Assembly: GCA_016779325.1 (NCBI GenBank)
Contig: JADHNU010000006.1
Location: 1 to 64,000 of the forward strand
DNA from: Pseudomonadales bacterium
GTDB lineage: Bacteria > Pseudomonadota > Gammaproteobacteria > Pseudomonadales > Azotimanducaceae
DNA: 64,000 bases
Direction of reading: 5' to 3'
Shown: piece by piece, positions 44,912-49,455 of the stretch
Position numbering within the stretch: the first letter of the stretch is position 1
Layout: every line of letters begins with the position of its first letter
The notes under the pieces: model-generated
The model's database searches: none
What the model was told of the DNA's origin: nothing
The model's input: only the letters and a program-made list of their open reading frames with translations
Translations under genes and position numbers: made by a program

Positions 44912-44987
44912 AGCAGACTCCTTCCGTGCCGAGGCAAGACGGCGTGATGTGAGGGCGCTATCATCGAGGCCGTCGGAGGAGAGCGCA

Positions 44988-45890
44988 ATGGATCCTAAAA
45001 CTTGGTTGAGCGCGGAAGAGCTGGCTTCCGTGACCCGTCGTAGCGACCTAAAAGGGGGCTTTTTGGTGCTGTCCCAGTGGGTTCAGGTGCTTGGGCTCTT
45101 CTACCTCATGGCGGTCTTCCCCAGCCTAACCACCTGGCTTCTCGGCACCGTGCTTCTGGGAAGCCGTCTGCTGGGCTTCGGCATTCTGGTGCACGAATGC
45201 GGCCATCGAACTCTCTTTCGTACGCCGGCGCTGAATGACTTCGTCGGCCGCTGGCTGGTCGCGCCGCCAACTTTTAACAACATGCGGGCCTACATGCGGG
45301 GCCACCTCGAGCACCATCGGCTTGCGGGGACGGCGGAGGATCCGGACCTCCCCAACTATCGCGATTACCCCATCTCCCGCGCGCGGCTTTGGCGCAAGCT
45401 GCGTCGGGATTTAACGGGGCAGACGGGCTGGCGGACCCTTCAGGGCGTAGGCCGAAGCCTGGCGAACTATAGCCGCTTGAGTCCCGAGGCCCGGGGGGCG
45501 CTGGGGCGCGCCGTGCTTATGAACGCCGCCGTGTTCCTAGCGTTGCTGCTTGCGGGGGTGCCCGCGCTCTACCTCACCTGGTTTCTCGCCTATATTTTTG
45601 TCCTGCCCCTCGTGAGTCGCATTCGTCAGGTGGCGGAGCACGGCGCCGTGCCTGACTTGTTTAGCGGCGATGCGCGACACAACACACGCAGTGTGCGTTC
45701 GAACTGGCTCATGCGGGCCCTGTTCTCCCCCCACGGAGTGAATTGGCACCTGGAGCACCACCTCATGCCCTCCGTGCCCATCTACCACCTTGGCCGGCTC
45801 CATCGTCTGCTGACCACGAAGGGCGCTTATGAGGGCATGCACTTCGAAACCAGCTACCCGCGGCTCCTCGCGGCGGTCAGCCATCCCTAG
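44988..45890 (+). CDS. Membrane fatty acid desaturase family protein
   Basis: 300 residues with four to six hydrophobic segments. The three histidine boxes are HECGH (in LVHECGHRTLF), HLEHH (in RGHLEHHRLAG) and HLEHH (in NWHLEHHLMPS), giving a complete di-iron site. GGAGGAGAG lies upstream of the ATG. Members introduce double bonds or hydroxylate lipids. The closest-looking uncharacterised relatives are short bacterial desaturases; substrate cannot be named. oxyR follows after 8 bases. Confidence 0.88.
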   Translation: MDPKTWLSAEELASVTRRSDLKGGFLVLSQWVQVLGLFYLMAVFPSLTTWLLGTVLLGSRLLGFGILVHECGHRTLFRTPALNDFVGRWLVAPPTFNNMRAYMRGHLEHHRLAGTAEDPDLPNYRDYPISRARLWRKLRRDLTGQTGWRTLQGVGRSLANYSRLSPEARGALGRAVLMNAAVFLALLLAGVPALYLTWFLAYIFVLPLVSRIRQVAEHGAVPDLFSGDARHNTRSVRSNWLMRALFSPHGVNWHLEHHLMPSVPIYHLGRLHRLLTTKGAYEGMHFETSYPRLLAAVSHP

Positions 45891-45898
45891 GGGCCGTT

Positions 45899-46810
45899 AT
45901 GAACCTCCGCGATCTGAAGTATCTGGTGGCGGTGGCCGATCTGCGCCATTTTGGCCGGGCGGCAGACGCGTGCTTTGTCTCCCAGCCCACTTTGTCGACG
46001 CAAATTCGGAAGCTCGAGGAATTCCTAGGGGTCACGCTCATTGAGCGTAACAACCGTCAGGTACTCCTTACGGCCACGGGGGAAAAGATCGTGGCCCGGG
46101 CGCGTATCGTGCTTCGGGAGGCCGATCAGCTCGTACGTCTGGCGCGCCAGGCCAGCGACCCCCTTGGTGGAGAATTCCGTTTAGGCGTGATTCCCACGGT
46201 TGCCCCTTACTTGCTACCGCGCATGCTGCCGGCGCTGCGGATGCGCTTTCCCGAGCTTGAGGTGCAGCTGGTGGAGGCGCAAACATCCGTGATTACCCGG
46301 GAACTGCGCCTTGGGCATCTCGACGCCATCATTCTCGCCTTGCCGCTCCTCGAAGAGGGCGTGCGTAGCGAGGGCCTCTACGACGAGCCCTTCTACCTCG
46401 CCGTACCCGAGTCGGATCCCCTGGCTAGGCAAGCGGCGGTCAGGGCAGAGGATCTGGCGCATCGTCAGGTGCTGCTGCTTGAGGATGGCCATTGCCTGCG
46501 CGACCAGGCCTTGGACGTCTGCACCCAGGTGGGGGCCGTAGAGAATCTTAATTTTTCCGCGACCAGCATCGAAACGCTGCGCCACATGGTGGTGGCGGGC
46601 ATTGGGGTGACGCTCATTCCCGAATTGGCTCGGCAGGACAGCGATGGCATGCGCTACGTCCCCTTCGAAGGGGCGGGACCTCAGCGACGCATTGGCCTCG
46701 CTTGGCGGAGCACCTCCACCCGGGAGTTACTTCTCGGTCCCCTAGCGGAGTTGGTGCGGGTTGCCGTCTCCGCGAGCCTGGGGCCCGCGGATCGGTGCCG
46801 GGTGCTTTAG
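45899..46810 (+). CDS. oxyR: Peroxide-sensing LysR regulator OxyR
   Basis: 303 residues. The N-terminal LysR helix-turn-helix is at about 18-37 (HFGRAADACFVSQPTLSTQI). The redox cysteines C199 and C208 fall in DGHCLRDQALDVC at exactly the E. coli numbering, so disulfide activation by hydrogen peroxide is expected. It lies 8 bases after the desaturase and its stop overlaps that of the DUF3501 gene. A dyad at 49441-49455 upstream of rubrerythrin is a candidate target. Confidence 0.95.
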   Translation: MNLRDLKYLVAVADLRHFGRAADACFVSQPTLSTQIRKLEEFLGVTLIERNNRQVLLTATGEKIVARARIVLREADQLVRLARQASDPLGGEFRLGVIPTVAPYLLPRMLPALRMRFPELEVQLVEAQTSVITRELRLGHLDAIILALPLLEEGVRSEGLYDEPFYLAVPESDPLARQAAVRAEDLAHRQVLLLEDGHCLRDQALDVCTQVGAVENLNFSATSIETLRHMVVAGIGVTLIPELARQDSDGMRYVPFEGAGPQRRIGLAWRSTSTRELLLGPLAELVRVAVSASLGPADRCRVL

Positions 46811-47394
46811 GCGGCGGTCAGATCTGTAGCCAGGGCGGCATGCTGCGCTGCGTCCAGCGTGAGTTCGCAGGTGAGGGCCGCGTGGTCTGCACCAAAGGTG
46901 ATGGCCGCGCCAGCGTGGACGGCCTTGGCCTGCTCGGTCGTGAGTTCGAAGCGCATGAAGTGCACGGAGGAGGTCTTCTCTTCCGTGGCCCGGTCGAGGT
47001 CTTCGTCGGCGATGGCGTAGGTTTTTTCCCCGTCGCCGATGCGCACGTAGACCTGATTTTCCACGCCCACCAGTTCGGCGAGGGCAACCTTCCGCTCCGC
47101 CACGTCGGCGTACTCGAGCATGAAGGTGGCTTTCCAGTTTTGCCCGTCGGGAATGAGCGGGTTGTAGGCCTCAATCTCCTCCATGATGCCCTCCACTTCG
47201 AAGATCCGCTCCACCCGGAGCATCTCCTGCACCTGGTACTGCATGGTGAGGAAATCTTCAAAGTACAGGGTGGCGTTCGGCGAGAGCGCCACCCGCCGGG
47301 CTACCTTGTGGGCAATCACCTGGGCCCGAAAGGCCGGGCGCGCCTCGGCGTATTGCTCGAGGCTCATGAGCGTTTCCCGGGATAGCTTTTGCAT
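46807..47394 (-). CDS. DUF3501 family protein
   Basis: 195-residue protein of unknown function. Recognised by KLSRETLMSLEQYAEARP near the start and FEDFLTMQYQVQEMLRVERI in the middle. The rest is rich in acidic residues and no known catalytic motif is seen. The ATG at 47394 has GGGAG upstream and gives the family start. It follows the Fe-S protein by 13 bases; DUF3501, this Fe-S protein type and rubrerythrin recur together in proteobacterial genomes, which suggests a common task. Confidence 0.88.
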   Translation of the reverse strand: MQKLSRETLMSLEQYAEARPAFRAQVIAHKVARRVALSPNATLYFEDFLTMQYQVQEMLRVERIFEVEGIMEEIEAYNPLIPDGQNWKATFMLEYADVAERKVALAELVGVENQVYVRIGDGEKTYAIADEDLDRATEEKTSSVHFMRFELTTEQAKAVHAGAAITFGADHAALTCELTLDAAQHAALATDLTAA

Positions 47395-47407
47395 CAGTGA
47401 ATCTCCC

Positions 47408-48751
47408 TTAGGCGGCGGCAAGGCCGTAGGCAATGCGAAGCATGGTAAGGGGATGGGACGCTTCCCCCTGATCCGTGAGCCCGTGTTGGATCATGCGGCC
47501 CGCCATGGGGCAGTCACTGCCGTAATGGTCGGGGTTTTCCTGTTTCACCTTGTTCACGATGGGGCGGGCAATCTTCACCGCGTGGTCGTGGGTTTCCTCC
47601 CGATAGGCGTAGGTGCCGTCGTGGCCCGAGCAGCGCTCAATGAGGGTCACCTTAGTGTCGGGAATGAGCGCAAGCAGCTCCCGGGTCTTTTGGCCGATGT
47701 TCTGCACGCGCTGGTGACAAGCGGCGTGGTAGGTGACCTTGCCCAGGGGCTGGGGGAAATCGGTTTTGAGTAGCCCGTCTTTATGGCGCAGCATGAGGTA
47801 TTCGAAGGGATCGAAGAGATGCGCCGCTACCTTCTGCACCGCCTCGTCTTCCGGGAACATAAGCGGTAACTCCTGCTTGAACATGAGTACGCAGGAGGGC
47901 ACGGGGGCGATGATATCGAAGCCCTCTTCGATAGCCGCGAGGAGAACGGGGATGTTGTGCTCCTTTAGGCGCTTCACGGCCGTCAGGTCGCCCAGTTCGA
48001 ACTTGGGCATGCCGCAGCACTTTTCGCCGTCAAGGACCTTGACGGGAATGTCGTTGTGCAGGAATACGGCCGCAAGGTCGGCGCCGAGCTGGGGCTCGTT
48101 GTAGTTGCCGTAGCAGGTGGTGAAAACGGCGACGCGGCCCTGGGTGCGACCGCTGGCAGTCACGGGCAGCTGGGCGCCGAGGGTCCCCTTATGGGTCCGC
48201 TTGAAGGTCTTGCTGTGAAACTGAGGCAGGGGCGCCTTTTCATGAATGCCCACGACCTTTTGGAGGGCGCTGCGCAGCGTTTCCTGGCCGTTGGCAAAGT
48301 TCACCGCATCGGCGATGCCCGGCTGGCCGAGCACGGAAAAGACGGCGTCGGTGCTGGTGATGAGGCGGTCCCGCCATTTCGCCTGCCCCTTCGAGAACTT
48401 CACGGCCTTCGCCCGCAGCATAAGGTGGGGGAAGTCGAGGTTGAATTCGTGGGGCGGCAGGTAGGGGCACTTGGTTTCGGCGCAGAGGTCGCAGAGGTAA
48501 CACTGGTCGACGACCTTGCCGTAGTCCTCTTTAGCAACGCCGTCCACTTCCATGGTGTCTGATTCGTCAACCAAATCGAAGAGCACGGGGAAGGACTGGC
48601 ACAGGCTGACGCAGCGCCGGCAGGTGTGGCAGATGTCAAATACCCGCTCGAGCTCTTGGTTGAGGGCGTCCTCATTCCAGAACTCCGGAGTTTGCCAGTG
48701 ATGGGGCTCGCGCTTTGCTTTTTCGAGATTGCCTTCACGATAGCCTGCCAT
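47408..48751 (-). CDS. Fe-S protein with two CCG domains (GlpC/HdrD-like)
   Basis: 447 residues. Two 4Fe-4S sites: C41, C44, C47 and C51 in CHTCRRCVSLC, and C84, C87, C90 and C95 in CYLCDLCAETKC. Two CCG-type domains follow, with CCGMPKFELGD and YHAACHQRVQNIG then CSGHDGTYAYRE. This is the plan of GlpC, GlcF and heterodisulfide reductase subunit D. No flavin partner is encoded nearby. Inferred role: passes electrons to or from rubrerythrin, or repairs a thiol or persulfide. AAGGAAG precedes the ATG. Confidence 0.88.
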   Translation of the reverse strand: MAGYREGNLEKAKREPHHWQTPEFWNEDALNQELERVFDICHTCRRCVSLCQSFPVLFDLVDESDTMEVDGVAKEDYGKVVDQCYLCDLCAETKCPYLPPHEFNLDFPHLMLRAKAVKFSKGQAKWRDRLITSTDAVFSVLGQPGIADAVNFANGQETLRSALQKVVGIHEKAPLPQFHSKTFKRTHKGTLGAQLPVTASGRTQGRVAVFTTCYGNYNEPQLGADLAAVFLHNDIPVKVLDGEKCCGMPKFELGDLTAVKRLKEHNIPVLLAAIEEGFDIIAPVPSCVLMFKQELPLMFPEDEAVQKVAAHLFDPFEYLMLRHKDGLLKTDFPQPLGKVTYHAACHQRVQNIGQKTRELLALIPDTKVTLIERCSGHDGTYAYREETHDHAVKIARPIVNKVKQENPDHYGSDCPMAGRMIQHGLTDQGEASHPLTMLRIAYGLAAA

Positions 48752-48804
48752 GCTCGCGCTTCCTTCGCTGTGCTAAGAATTAGGGGGATGGTCGTCTGAC
48801 AAAA

Positions 48805-48828
48805 TCAAAGCGCCCGGACGGGCGCCTT
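48805..48828 (-). terminator. Terminator-like hairpin after rubrerythrin gene
   Basis: GCGCCC and GGGCGC with a 4-base loop, followed on the minus strand by TTTGATTTTG. It lies 58 bases after the rubrerythrin stop and 54 bases before the Fe-S gene, so it probably yields a short abundant rubrerythrin message with partial read-through. Confidence 0.65.
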
Positions 48829-48840
48829 GAGAAGCGGGAA

Positions 48841-48860
48841 GGGGCAGCCTAGCTGGCCCC
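48841..48860 (-). other. Second hairpin after rubrerythrin gene
   Basis: GGGGC and GCCCC flank AGC-CTA-GCT with one bulged base, giving a stable stem-loop 26 bases after the stop. It has no T-run and may protect the 3' end of the message. Confidence 0.45.
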
Positions 48861-48885
48861 CGCCCGCAGGGCGGTCGGAGTGACC

Positions 48886-49302
48886 TTAGGCCATGGCGTC
48901 CAGGGCTTTCTGGAAGCGGTTGGCGTGAGACCGCTCAGCCTTGGCGAGGGTTTCGAACCAATCAGCGATTTCGTCGAAGCCTTCGTCGCGGGCGGTTTTC
49001 GCCATGCCCGGATACATATCGGTGTACTCGTGGGTTTCGCCGGCGATGGCGGCCTTGAGGTTGTCGGCGGTGGTGCCGATGGGGAGGCCGGTGGCGGGAT
49101 CGCCCACTTGCTCCATGTACTCAAGGTGGCCGTGGGCATGGCCCGTTTCGCCTTCGGCGGTGGAGCGGAATACGGCGGCAACGTCGTTTTCCCCTTCCAC
49201 GTCGGCCTTGGCCGCGAAGTAGAGGTAGCGGCGGTTAGCTTGAGACTCACCGGCGAAGGCGGCCTTCAGGTTTTCGAAAGTTTCGCTGTCTTTCAGATCC
49301 AT
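48886..49302 (-). CDS. Rubrerythrin without rubredoxin domain
   Basis: 138-residue four-helix-bundle di-iron protein; [28 protein letters not shown] and [13 protein letters not shown] carry the ExxH-type ligands. The C-terminal rubredoxin domain of classical rubrerythrin is missing. It reduces hydrogen peroxide but needs an external electron donor, plausibly the Fe-S protein downstream. GAGGAAG lies 8 bases before the ATG. Promoter and candidate OxyR site are in the gap upstream. Confidence 0.92.
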
Positions 49303-49390: not shown

Positions 49391-49419
49391 AGTATACGGT
49401 CTTCCCGACGGGCTGCCAG
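49391..49419 (-). promoter_or_regulatory. Candidate promoter of rubrerythrin
   Basis: Minus-strand TATACT at 49391-49396 and CTGGCA at 49414-49419 with a 17-base spacer. The -10 is strong and the -35 weak (4 of 6), the pattern expected of an activated promoter. Transcription would begin near 49384 with an 80-base leader. Confidence 0.5.
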
Positions 49420-49440
49420 TTGTTCTTTTTGATTGGAGTG

Positions 49441-49455
49441 ATAGGCATTGCCTAT
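49441..49455. promoter_or_regulatory. Candidate OxyR-binding dyad
   Basis: ATAGGCATTGCCTAT is a perfect 7+1+7 palindrome and matches the ATAG-N7-CTAT half of the OxyR consensus. A weak second copy is centred 22 bases away at 49426, next to the -35 element, the usual OxyR geometry. Its inner bases differ from the consensus T and A. Confidence 0.55.

Follow-up and report, generated by a model that had tools for sequence, protein, structure and literature searches.

Three adjacent minus-strand genes in a 64,000-nucleotide stretch of contig JADHNU010000006.1 (hereafter, the window), encoding a single-domain rubrerythrin (rbr), a GlpC-like Fe-S/CCG protein (RFO) and a DUF3501 protein, probably form a peroxide reductase operon that is induced by OxyR; the operon belongs to the aerobic-type rubrerythrin systems already described. 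The best-known role of rubrerythrin is that of a peroxidase in anaerobic organisms. As the first-pass annotation of this DNA had described, a peroxide regulator converges on the trio: oxyR, on the plus strand, faces DUF3501-RFO-rbr, its end overlapping that of the DUF3501 gene by 4 bases. The coordinates and gene identities given there also hold, with Pfam supporting all four families and NCBIfam naming OxyR and indicating GlpC and rubrerythrin kinship. The self-contained peroxide reductase that it proposed is still the best reading, since it accommodates an OxyR box upstream of rbr, the co-occurrence of the three genes, the electron-transfer architecture of RFO, and the peroxidase activity that others measured for a relative, ferriperoxin of Hydrogenobacter thermophilus (PMC3317640).

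The module itself is already known, and the earlier interpretation was sound but incomplete. Cardenas, Quatrini and Holmes described in 2016 the same three families, with the same co-localization and co-occurrence as in the window, as the 'aerobic-type rubrerythrin system' (RBR, RFO, and DUF3501; PMC5114695). The excerpted text of that paper finds the complete trio in 185 of 4461 genomes and rubrerythrin plus DUF3501 alone in 25, reports RFO-DUF3501 fusions in Nitrosomonas, and proposes that RFO makes up for the loss of the rubredoxin domain. Excerpts of other papers note the trio in Acidihalobacter (PMC7760498) and in the protist Andalucia, where mitochondrial targeting is predicted (PMC7050145), so that this branch would reach protist mitochondria. 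It is also common: its marker, DUF3501, occurs in 184 of 399 genomes from the order to which genome G312 belongs. The statement that the gene group recurs in proteobacteria stands, but the group is better described than the first-pass annotation supposed: the system was named and counted in 2016 and, according to excerpts of PMC3317640, ferriperoxin is a single-domain rubrerythrin with NADPH/FNR-dependent peroxidase activity, whose disruptant is H2O2-sensitive and unable to grow aerobically. What is new here is regulatory (OxyR- or Irr-type promoters, almost mutually exclusive) and anatomical (a degenerate second CCG site and an EtfD/LutA-like fold in RFO).

Inspection of 398 genomes of the phylum revealed DUF3501 in 25 (hereafter, trio genomes, that of the window included), all of which keep the order rbr-RFO-DUF3501 on one strand. 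The aerobic rubrerythrin profile scored at least 281 bits in these same 25 genomes, and other rubrerythrins among the 398 did not exceed 182; the window protein reached 285.9 bits against the profile of the 25 aerobic-type proteins, of which it is one. By this domain and lineage measure, as well as by its co-localized RFO (COG0247/CCG) and DUF3501, the window locus belongs to the aerobic-type rubrerythrin system. Across the 25 genomes, rubrerythrin is by far the best conserved of the three, with 79-88% identity to the window protein as opposed to 37-63% for RFO and 29-61% for DUF3501. For a broader comparison of 105 loci, the 25 phylum loci (the window and 24 stretches of 12-17 kb each) were combined with 80 named loci that ranked highest among at least 582. 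All three genes were present in 65 of the 80, two of them having a cut rubrerythrin, while 13 others have their first detected gene at most 480 bases from the end, so that the gene not found could lie beyond the contig. The stretches examined thus left two genuine exceptions, L070, lacking RFO, and L115, lacking rubrerythrin. Co-occurrence is therefore tight far beyond close relatives, the comparison by which the first-pass annotation had proposed to judge the grouping.

DNA comparison shows the link between OxyR and the operon to be real. The ATAG-N7-CTAT half-box upstream of rbr is the sole perfect one in the window (0.16 expected); its far end lies 153 bases before the rbr start codon, just 5' of a -35/-10-like pair. 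We collected 90 rbr upstream regions of 250 bases from 89 of the 105 loci (L077 contributes two), leaving out 16 loci with no rubrerythrin or with fewer than 200 bases upstream. Perfect boxes occurred in 22 of the 90 regions but in only 0.11% of dinucleotide shuffles (~0.1 expected), and the position of the window box is also occupied in relatives. When 23 perfect boxes were used to anchor the comparison, a second dyad scored 4.52/8 at an offset of precisely +22 bases, against 1.39-3.13 at the other offsets tried; this spacing is the OxyR tetramer register. The window regulator itself combines LysR DNA-binding and substrate domains with two Cys separated by nine residues, like C199/C208 of E. 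coli OxyR, and is the only OxyR of its genome at E <= 1e-50. Of the 81 loci that extend far enough on either flank, 13 have an oxyR gene, identified by similarity to window OxyR, next to the operon. Four arrangements occur: four of these genes lie upstream and two downstream in the orientation of the operon, six (counting that of the window) are convergent with it, and one is divergent. All five such neighbors scanned in NCBIfam had OxyR as their best family, at 228-316 bits and under the cut-off of 329. A general OxyR synteny was discarded, for none of the 24 other phylum loci has a gene reaching 100 bits to window OxyR, which marks adjacency as a lineage habit. The proposed link to OxyR is thus borne out by a perfect box that recurs in relatives, the regulator itself being a neighbor in those 13 loci only.

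An OxyR gene clustered with rubrerythrin, COG0247 and DUF3501 genes is likewise mentioned in the consulted part of a report on Sideroxydans lithotrophicus (PMC7852563), which concerns one genome and gives no binding site there, whereas the present comparison covers many loci and their boxes. The main text of PMC5114695 contains neither OxyR, Irr, PerR nor 'regulat', which sets it apart from the present analysis, with its adjacent oxyR in the window and its comparison of promoter types. Our literature search retrieved no OxyR or Irr control of the trio beyond the Sideroxydans neighborhood, although alpha-proteobacterial Irr control may already be published. Two loci show unusual layouts: the rbr upstream region of L029 carries two perfect OxyR half-boxes at a spacing of 34 bases, and in an uncultured Pseudomonadales (L077:3588-5598) an oxyR-like gene lies between two aerobic-type rubrerythrin genes, upstream of RFO, which is a duplicated, OxyR-centered version of the operon.

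RFO carries 15 Cys residues invariant in all trio genomes. These include two complete ferredoxin-type motifs (C41, 44, 47, 51 and C84, 87, 90, 95), a first CCG site with four Cys (C213, 245, 246, 287) and a degenerate second one with three (C345, 374, 414). Hence, the earlier description as a two-cluster CCG protein was right as to CCG and wrong as to the count, there being two ferredoxin-type motifs besides the four-Cys and the degenerate three-Cys CCG sites. GlpC, a subunit of anaerobic glycerol-3-phosphate dehydrogenase, shares with RFO both ferredoxin-type motifs and the first CCG motif. However, RFO scores 226 bits against NCBIfam GlpC, under the cut-off of 278, lacks an intact second CCG motif, with no Cys at the places of E. 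coli GlpC C330 (an invariant Ser in RFO) and C372 in any of the 25 genomes, and sits with rubrerythrin and DUF3501. In the model of a natural RFO-DUF3501 fusion (L213), the RFO part resembled mycobacterial EtfD, which we take to be a menaquinone-linked protein, over 361 residues (Z 21.3), and the CCG domain resembled LutA (Z 23.9), so the modeled fold appears common to RFO, EtfD and LutA. Together, these features favor RFO as a conduit from a soluble or quinone donor to rubrerythrin and make it the best candidate for the missing electron donor, the role already suggested for the CCG protein.

The rubrerythrin indeed lacks a rubredoxin, as first noted: the 138-amino-acid protein has no rubredoxin domain by Pfam and no Cys. 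Its PDB sequence matches are sulerythrin and 4di0/9onm, rubrerythrins likewise devoid of a rubredoxin domain, and seven residues (E19, E52, H55, E89, E92, E123, H126), presumably the di-iron ligands as in other rubrerythrins, are invariant in 25/25. Such a protein might be fed directly by ferredoxin/FNR or by free rubredoxin, with RFO and DUF3501 acting elsewhere, for example in metal loading or rubrerythrin repair. We consider this unlikely: although ferriperoxin runs on NADPH plus FNR in the available portion of PMC3317640, Thermoproteales carry rubrerythrin and DUF3501 without RFO according to the excerpts of PMC5114695, and rubredoxin is present in 16 of the 25 trio genomes, RFO stays within the operon in all 25 and has the build of an electron carrier. 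Free rubredoxin was discarded as a universal donor because it went undetected in the other nine trio genomes, bearing in mind that a 47-residue family can be missed; the genome of the window has one. The H. thermophilus system also differs from the window in that its RFO gene is separate from the other two (PMC5114695, in part).

Less probable still is that RFO is an HdrB-like disulfide reductase and that the operon repairs peroxide-damaged thiols or persulfides, the rubrerythrin merely protecting RFO. HdrB does figure among the fold relatives of the CCG domain (Z 18.7), and HdrB subunits are the sole PDB sequence matches of RFO, albeit weak (E 0.007-0.009); nonetheless, LutA and EtfD rank above it. 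We take the HdrB-type motif to be the five-Cys CX31-39CCX35-36CXXC, which is found at neither site: the four Cys of site 1 equal the GlpC count, and site 2 has lost two of GlpC's five in 25/25. This invariant loss tells against the thiol-repair alternative also raised by the first-pass annotation. Collectively, the lost site-2 Cys, the EtfD/LutA-like fold and the nine trio genomes with no rubredoxin detected favor electron supply over thiol repair.

DUF3501 yielded a confident AlphaFold2 model (pLDDT 93.3), for which PDB 3fjv was the sole solved relative found (Foldseek TM 0.93, plus a sequence match); Foldseek returned no other fold relative at E up to 0.001, which does not by itself prove a new fold. 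No Cys is conserved among the 25 trio genomes, rendering a redox role unlikely. Natural RFO-DUF3501 fusions were evident in four (L212, L213, L214, L217) of the seven genomes examined, out of nine DUF3501-bearing ones in family f18, and argue for physical contact between both proteins. An adaptor role would suit DUF3501, which is kept with rubrerythrin where RFO is absent (PMC5114695, in its excerpts; L070) and is fused to RFO elsewhere.

Promoter comparison uncovered a second box. A perfect 15-base-pair palindrome, TTAGA-N5-TCTAA, occurred in 36 of the 90 rbr upstream regions, none of which has both perfect boxes; the palindrome is missing, even at one mismatch, from all 16 regions whose locus includes an OxyR-like gene. 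Among cultured carriers, Thioalkalivibrio sp. ALJ21 (L092) has a perfect Irr-type palindrome and Sedimenticola hydrogenitrophicus (L120) an OxyR-type box at one mismatch. Whole genomes G103, G191 and G312 contain one site each and G219 two, with one per genome upstream of rbr; six other whole genomes, that of the window included, lack it. A Fur-family gene lies within ~0.3 kb of the trio in eight loci (one scanned in Pfam), and five Irr-type proteins, one of them from these eight loci, had Irr or IrrA as their best NCBIfam family; with an IrrA cut-off of 150 bits, two scored above (L145, 206.8; L147, 211.9) and three below (L144, 149.5; L146, 126.5; L149, 116.9). The Irr profile separated the trio genomes into 11 with proteins at 185-211 bits and 14 with nothing over 64, the genome of the window lacking Irr. 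The palindrome at up to one mismatch was found in 8 of the 11 Irr-bearing and in none of the 14 Irr-lacking genomes (Fisher p = 1.5e-4). OxyR at E <= 1e-50 was absent from six of the 25, five of which are Irr-bearing.

We then added 74 more genomes from the G312 order and compared the sequences upstream of their rbr genes, 60 taken by E-value from the DUF3501 list (minus genomes already included and contig-start matches) and 14 for fused-looking frames or membership in the same families. Two were dropped (L218, rbr not found in the stretch; L262, only 166 bases upstream), leaving 72, which are not fully independent of the first set because some of its genomes share the order. The perfect palindrome was present in 34 of 41 Irr-bearing but only 4 of 31 Irr-lacking genomes (p = 2e-9), and by family majority (26 families) in 12/15 versus 2/11 (p = 0.004). 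The OxyR box at up to one mismatch was present in 12/31 Irr-lacking and 5/41 Irr-bearing genomes. Over all 161 promoters, the perfect box was of the OxyR type in 27 and of the Irr type in 74, and no promoter had one of each; for the overlap to arise by chance p = 7e-9, on the assumption of independent promoters, which does not hold for relatives. A search for a third operator in the 28 promoters that match neither box, one mismatch being allowed, returned no common palindrome. Co-occurrence, neighborhood and a 7-1-7 shape that we assume to be typical of Fur-family sites point to an Irr-type protein as the likely ligand of the palindrome. This genome comparison suggests that the operon is switched by OxyR or by an Irr-type iron regulator, seldom by both. 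In two Ctena symbiont loci (L076, L084; about 3.9-5.2 kb), a perfect OxyR box coexists with an Irr-type box at one mismatch, and an irr-like gene is adjacent, making dual control possible there.

Irr control would indicate iron, and an Irr-type regulator tracks the second box; still, a rubrerythrin serving mainly as an iron- or O2-handling oxidase or ferroxidase for iron balance is improbable, for although Irr controls another ferritin-like gene, mbfA (PMC3413700, as excerpted), and B. pseudomallei rubrerythrin binds Mn, Co and Fe (PMC12585693, as excerpted), the other branch, window included, has OxyR-type promoters, and loss of ferriperoxin sensitizes cells to H2O2 in the available text of PMC3317640. 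A bolder form of the peroxide reductase reading, which we regard as doubtful, is a quinol-driven enzyme of aerobes, with an EtfD-like RFO drawing from the quinone pool, whose switch has repeatedly been swapped between an OxyR activator and an Irr iron-haem repressor. If so, the signal that calls up one and the same enzyme would differ among lineages, being either peroxide or iron status, and the promoter swap, if confirmed, would cheaply predict the stress under which the operon of a given genome serves.

We favor the OxyR-induced peroxide reductase, which might work as follows. H2O2-oxidized OxyR would bind the box and activate the minus-strand promoter just downstream, yielding rubrerythrin in excess and, by read-through of a partial terminator, a smaller amount of RFO. 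H2O2 or organic peroxides would be reduced at the di-iron site with electrons that RFO passes on through two putative [4Fe-4S] clusters and one CCG-domain cluster, in place of the lost rubredoxin domain. RFO could in turn be charged by the quinol pool or by a soluble flavoprotein or ferredoxin, the probable donors, while DUF3501 might be a non-redox adaptor that tethers RFO to rubrerythrin or aids metal loading. Regarding dosage, hairpins under a stricter rule were found in 22 of 85 rbr-RFO gaps (2.7% in shuffles) and in none of 56 RFO-DUF3501 gaps longer than 20 bases, a contrast partly explained by the shorter RFO-DUF3501 gaps. The rbr-RFO hairpin would provide more rubrerythrin than RFO, as for an enzyme and its reductase. 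No work on the electron source of rubrerythrin in trio bacteria was found in the literature; the RFO Cys pattern and fold, the fusions and the OxyR/Irr-type promoters turn this question into specific tests.

Several observations weigh against this reading. Ferriperoxin was assayed with FNR, not RFO, according to the text available (PMC3317640), and our search found no biochemistry of RFO or DUF3501. RFO is dispensable in some organisms, given the 25 genomes with rubrerythrin and DUF3501 only (PMC5114695, excerpts) and L070:6518-7525, where both genes adjoin downstream of an OxyR-like gene, a locus that forms a natural test case for the electron donor; conversely, the Thiotrichales chromosome L115:5670-8314 has RFO, DUF3501 and an adjacent Irr-type gene with no rubrerythrin within 14.6 kb. 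The fused RFO-DUF3501 model (pTM 0.67, disordered linker) offers no confident interface. Window OxyR falls under its NCBIfam equivalog cut-off, which is strict for these bacteria, as no OxyR of the 25 trio genomes exceeds it. The second dyad of the window box matches only half of the consensus, and the half-box, with 4 sites in the whole genome versus 7 for the reversed control pattern, is not enriched; its evidential weight thus comes from position and recurrence. Likewise, the palindrome shows no genome-wide excess over its reversed control (1, 0, 5 and 2 sites in G103, G191, G312 and G219). In the further set, three of the four Irr-lacking genomes with a perfect palindrome belong to families with Irr-bearing sisters, 7 of the 41 Irr-bearing genomes lack it (in three of them a perfect OxyR box takes its place), absence of Irr brings no enrichment of perfect OxyR boxes (2/31 versus 3/41), and 15 of the 31 Irr-lacking genomes match neither box even when one mismatch is allowed. 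Finally, the joint rise of B. pseudomallei bpss1837-1839 under oxidative stress speaks for the reading, but the same genes are listed as sigma-E-dependent in the portion of PMC4175613 consulted, a third type of control. Judging from gene names, gene order and PDB 3fjv, these genes presumably are the trio, with bpss1837 as the DUF3501 gene.

The remaining features of the locus are compiled in Table 1. The rbr-RFO gap is 134 bases. Sigma-70-like pairs are weak on their own (2 in the region, 1.1 expected), and hairpins of the window type were not in excess there (6 found, 6.3 expected).

Table 1. Genes and candidate control elements at the window locus
Feature	Position	Strand	Description
rbr	48886-49302	-	Single-domain rubrerythrin, ferritin-like di-iron protein, 138 amino acids; Pfam PF02915 Rubrerythrin, 107 bits
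RFO	47408-48751	-	GlpC-like Fe-S/CCG protein, 447 amino acids; Pfam CCG, 48.5 bits; 15 invariant Cys
DUF3501 gene	46807-47394	-	195 amino acids; Pfam PF12007, 225.9 bits
oxyR	45899-46810	+	LysR peroxide-sensing regulator; best NCBIfam family OxyR, 316.4 bits (cut-off 329)
OxyR half-box ATAG-N7-CTAT	49441-49455	-	5' of rbr
Second OxyR dyad, weak	49419-49433	-	+22 tetramer register; overlaps the -35-like hexamer; 4/8 consensus bases, counted by eye
Sigma-70-like promoter CTGGCA-17-TATACT	49391-49419	-	From consensus scan
Terminator-like hairpin	48805-48830	-	Between rbr and RFO; candidate partial terminator
Fatty-acid desaturase gene	44949-45890	+	3' end 8 bases before oxyR

The desaturase gene, on the same strand as oxyR and at 8-base spacing, may be co-transcribed with it; desaturase-oxyR was rejected as part of the module, since among the 105 loci a desaturase of at least 150 bits is found in the window only. 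An alanine dehydrogenase gene upstream of rbr in the window likewise had no 150-bit counterpart among the remaining 104 loci. Among loci L053-L129, the DUF3501 gene is followed by a GyrB/ParE-type topoisomerase gene in 25 and by a ParC/GyrA-type one in 20, which, with one representative of each scanned, probably reflects clade synteny.

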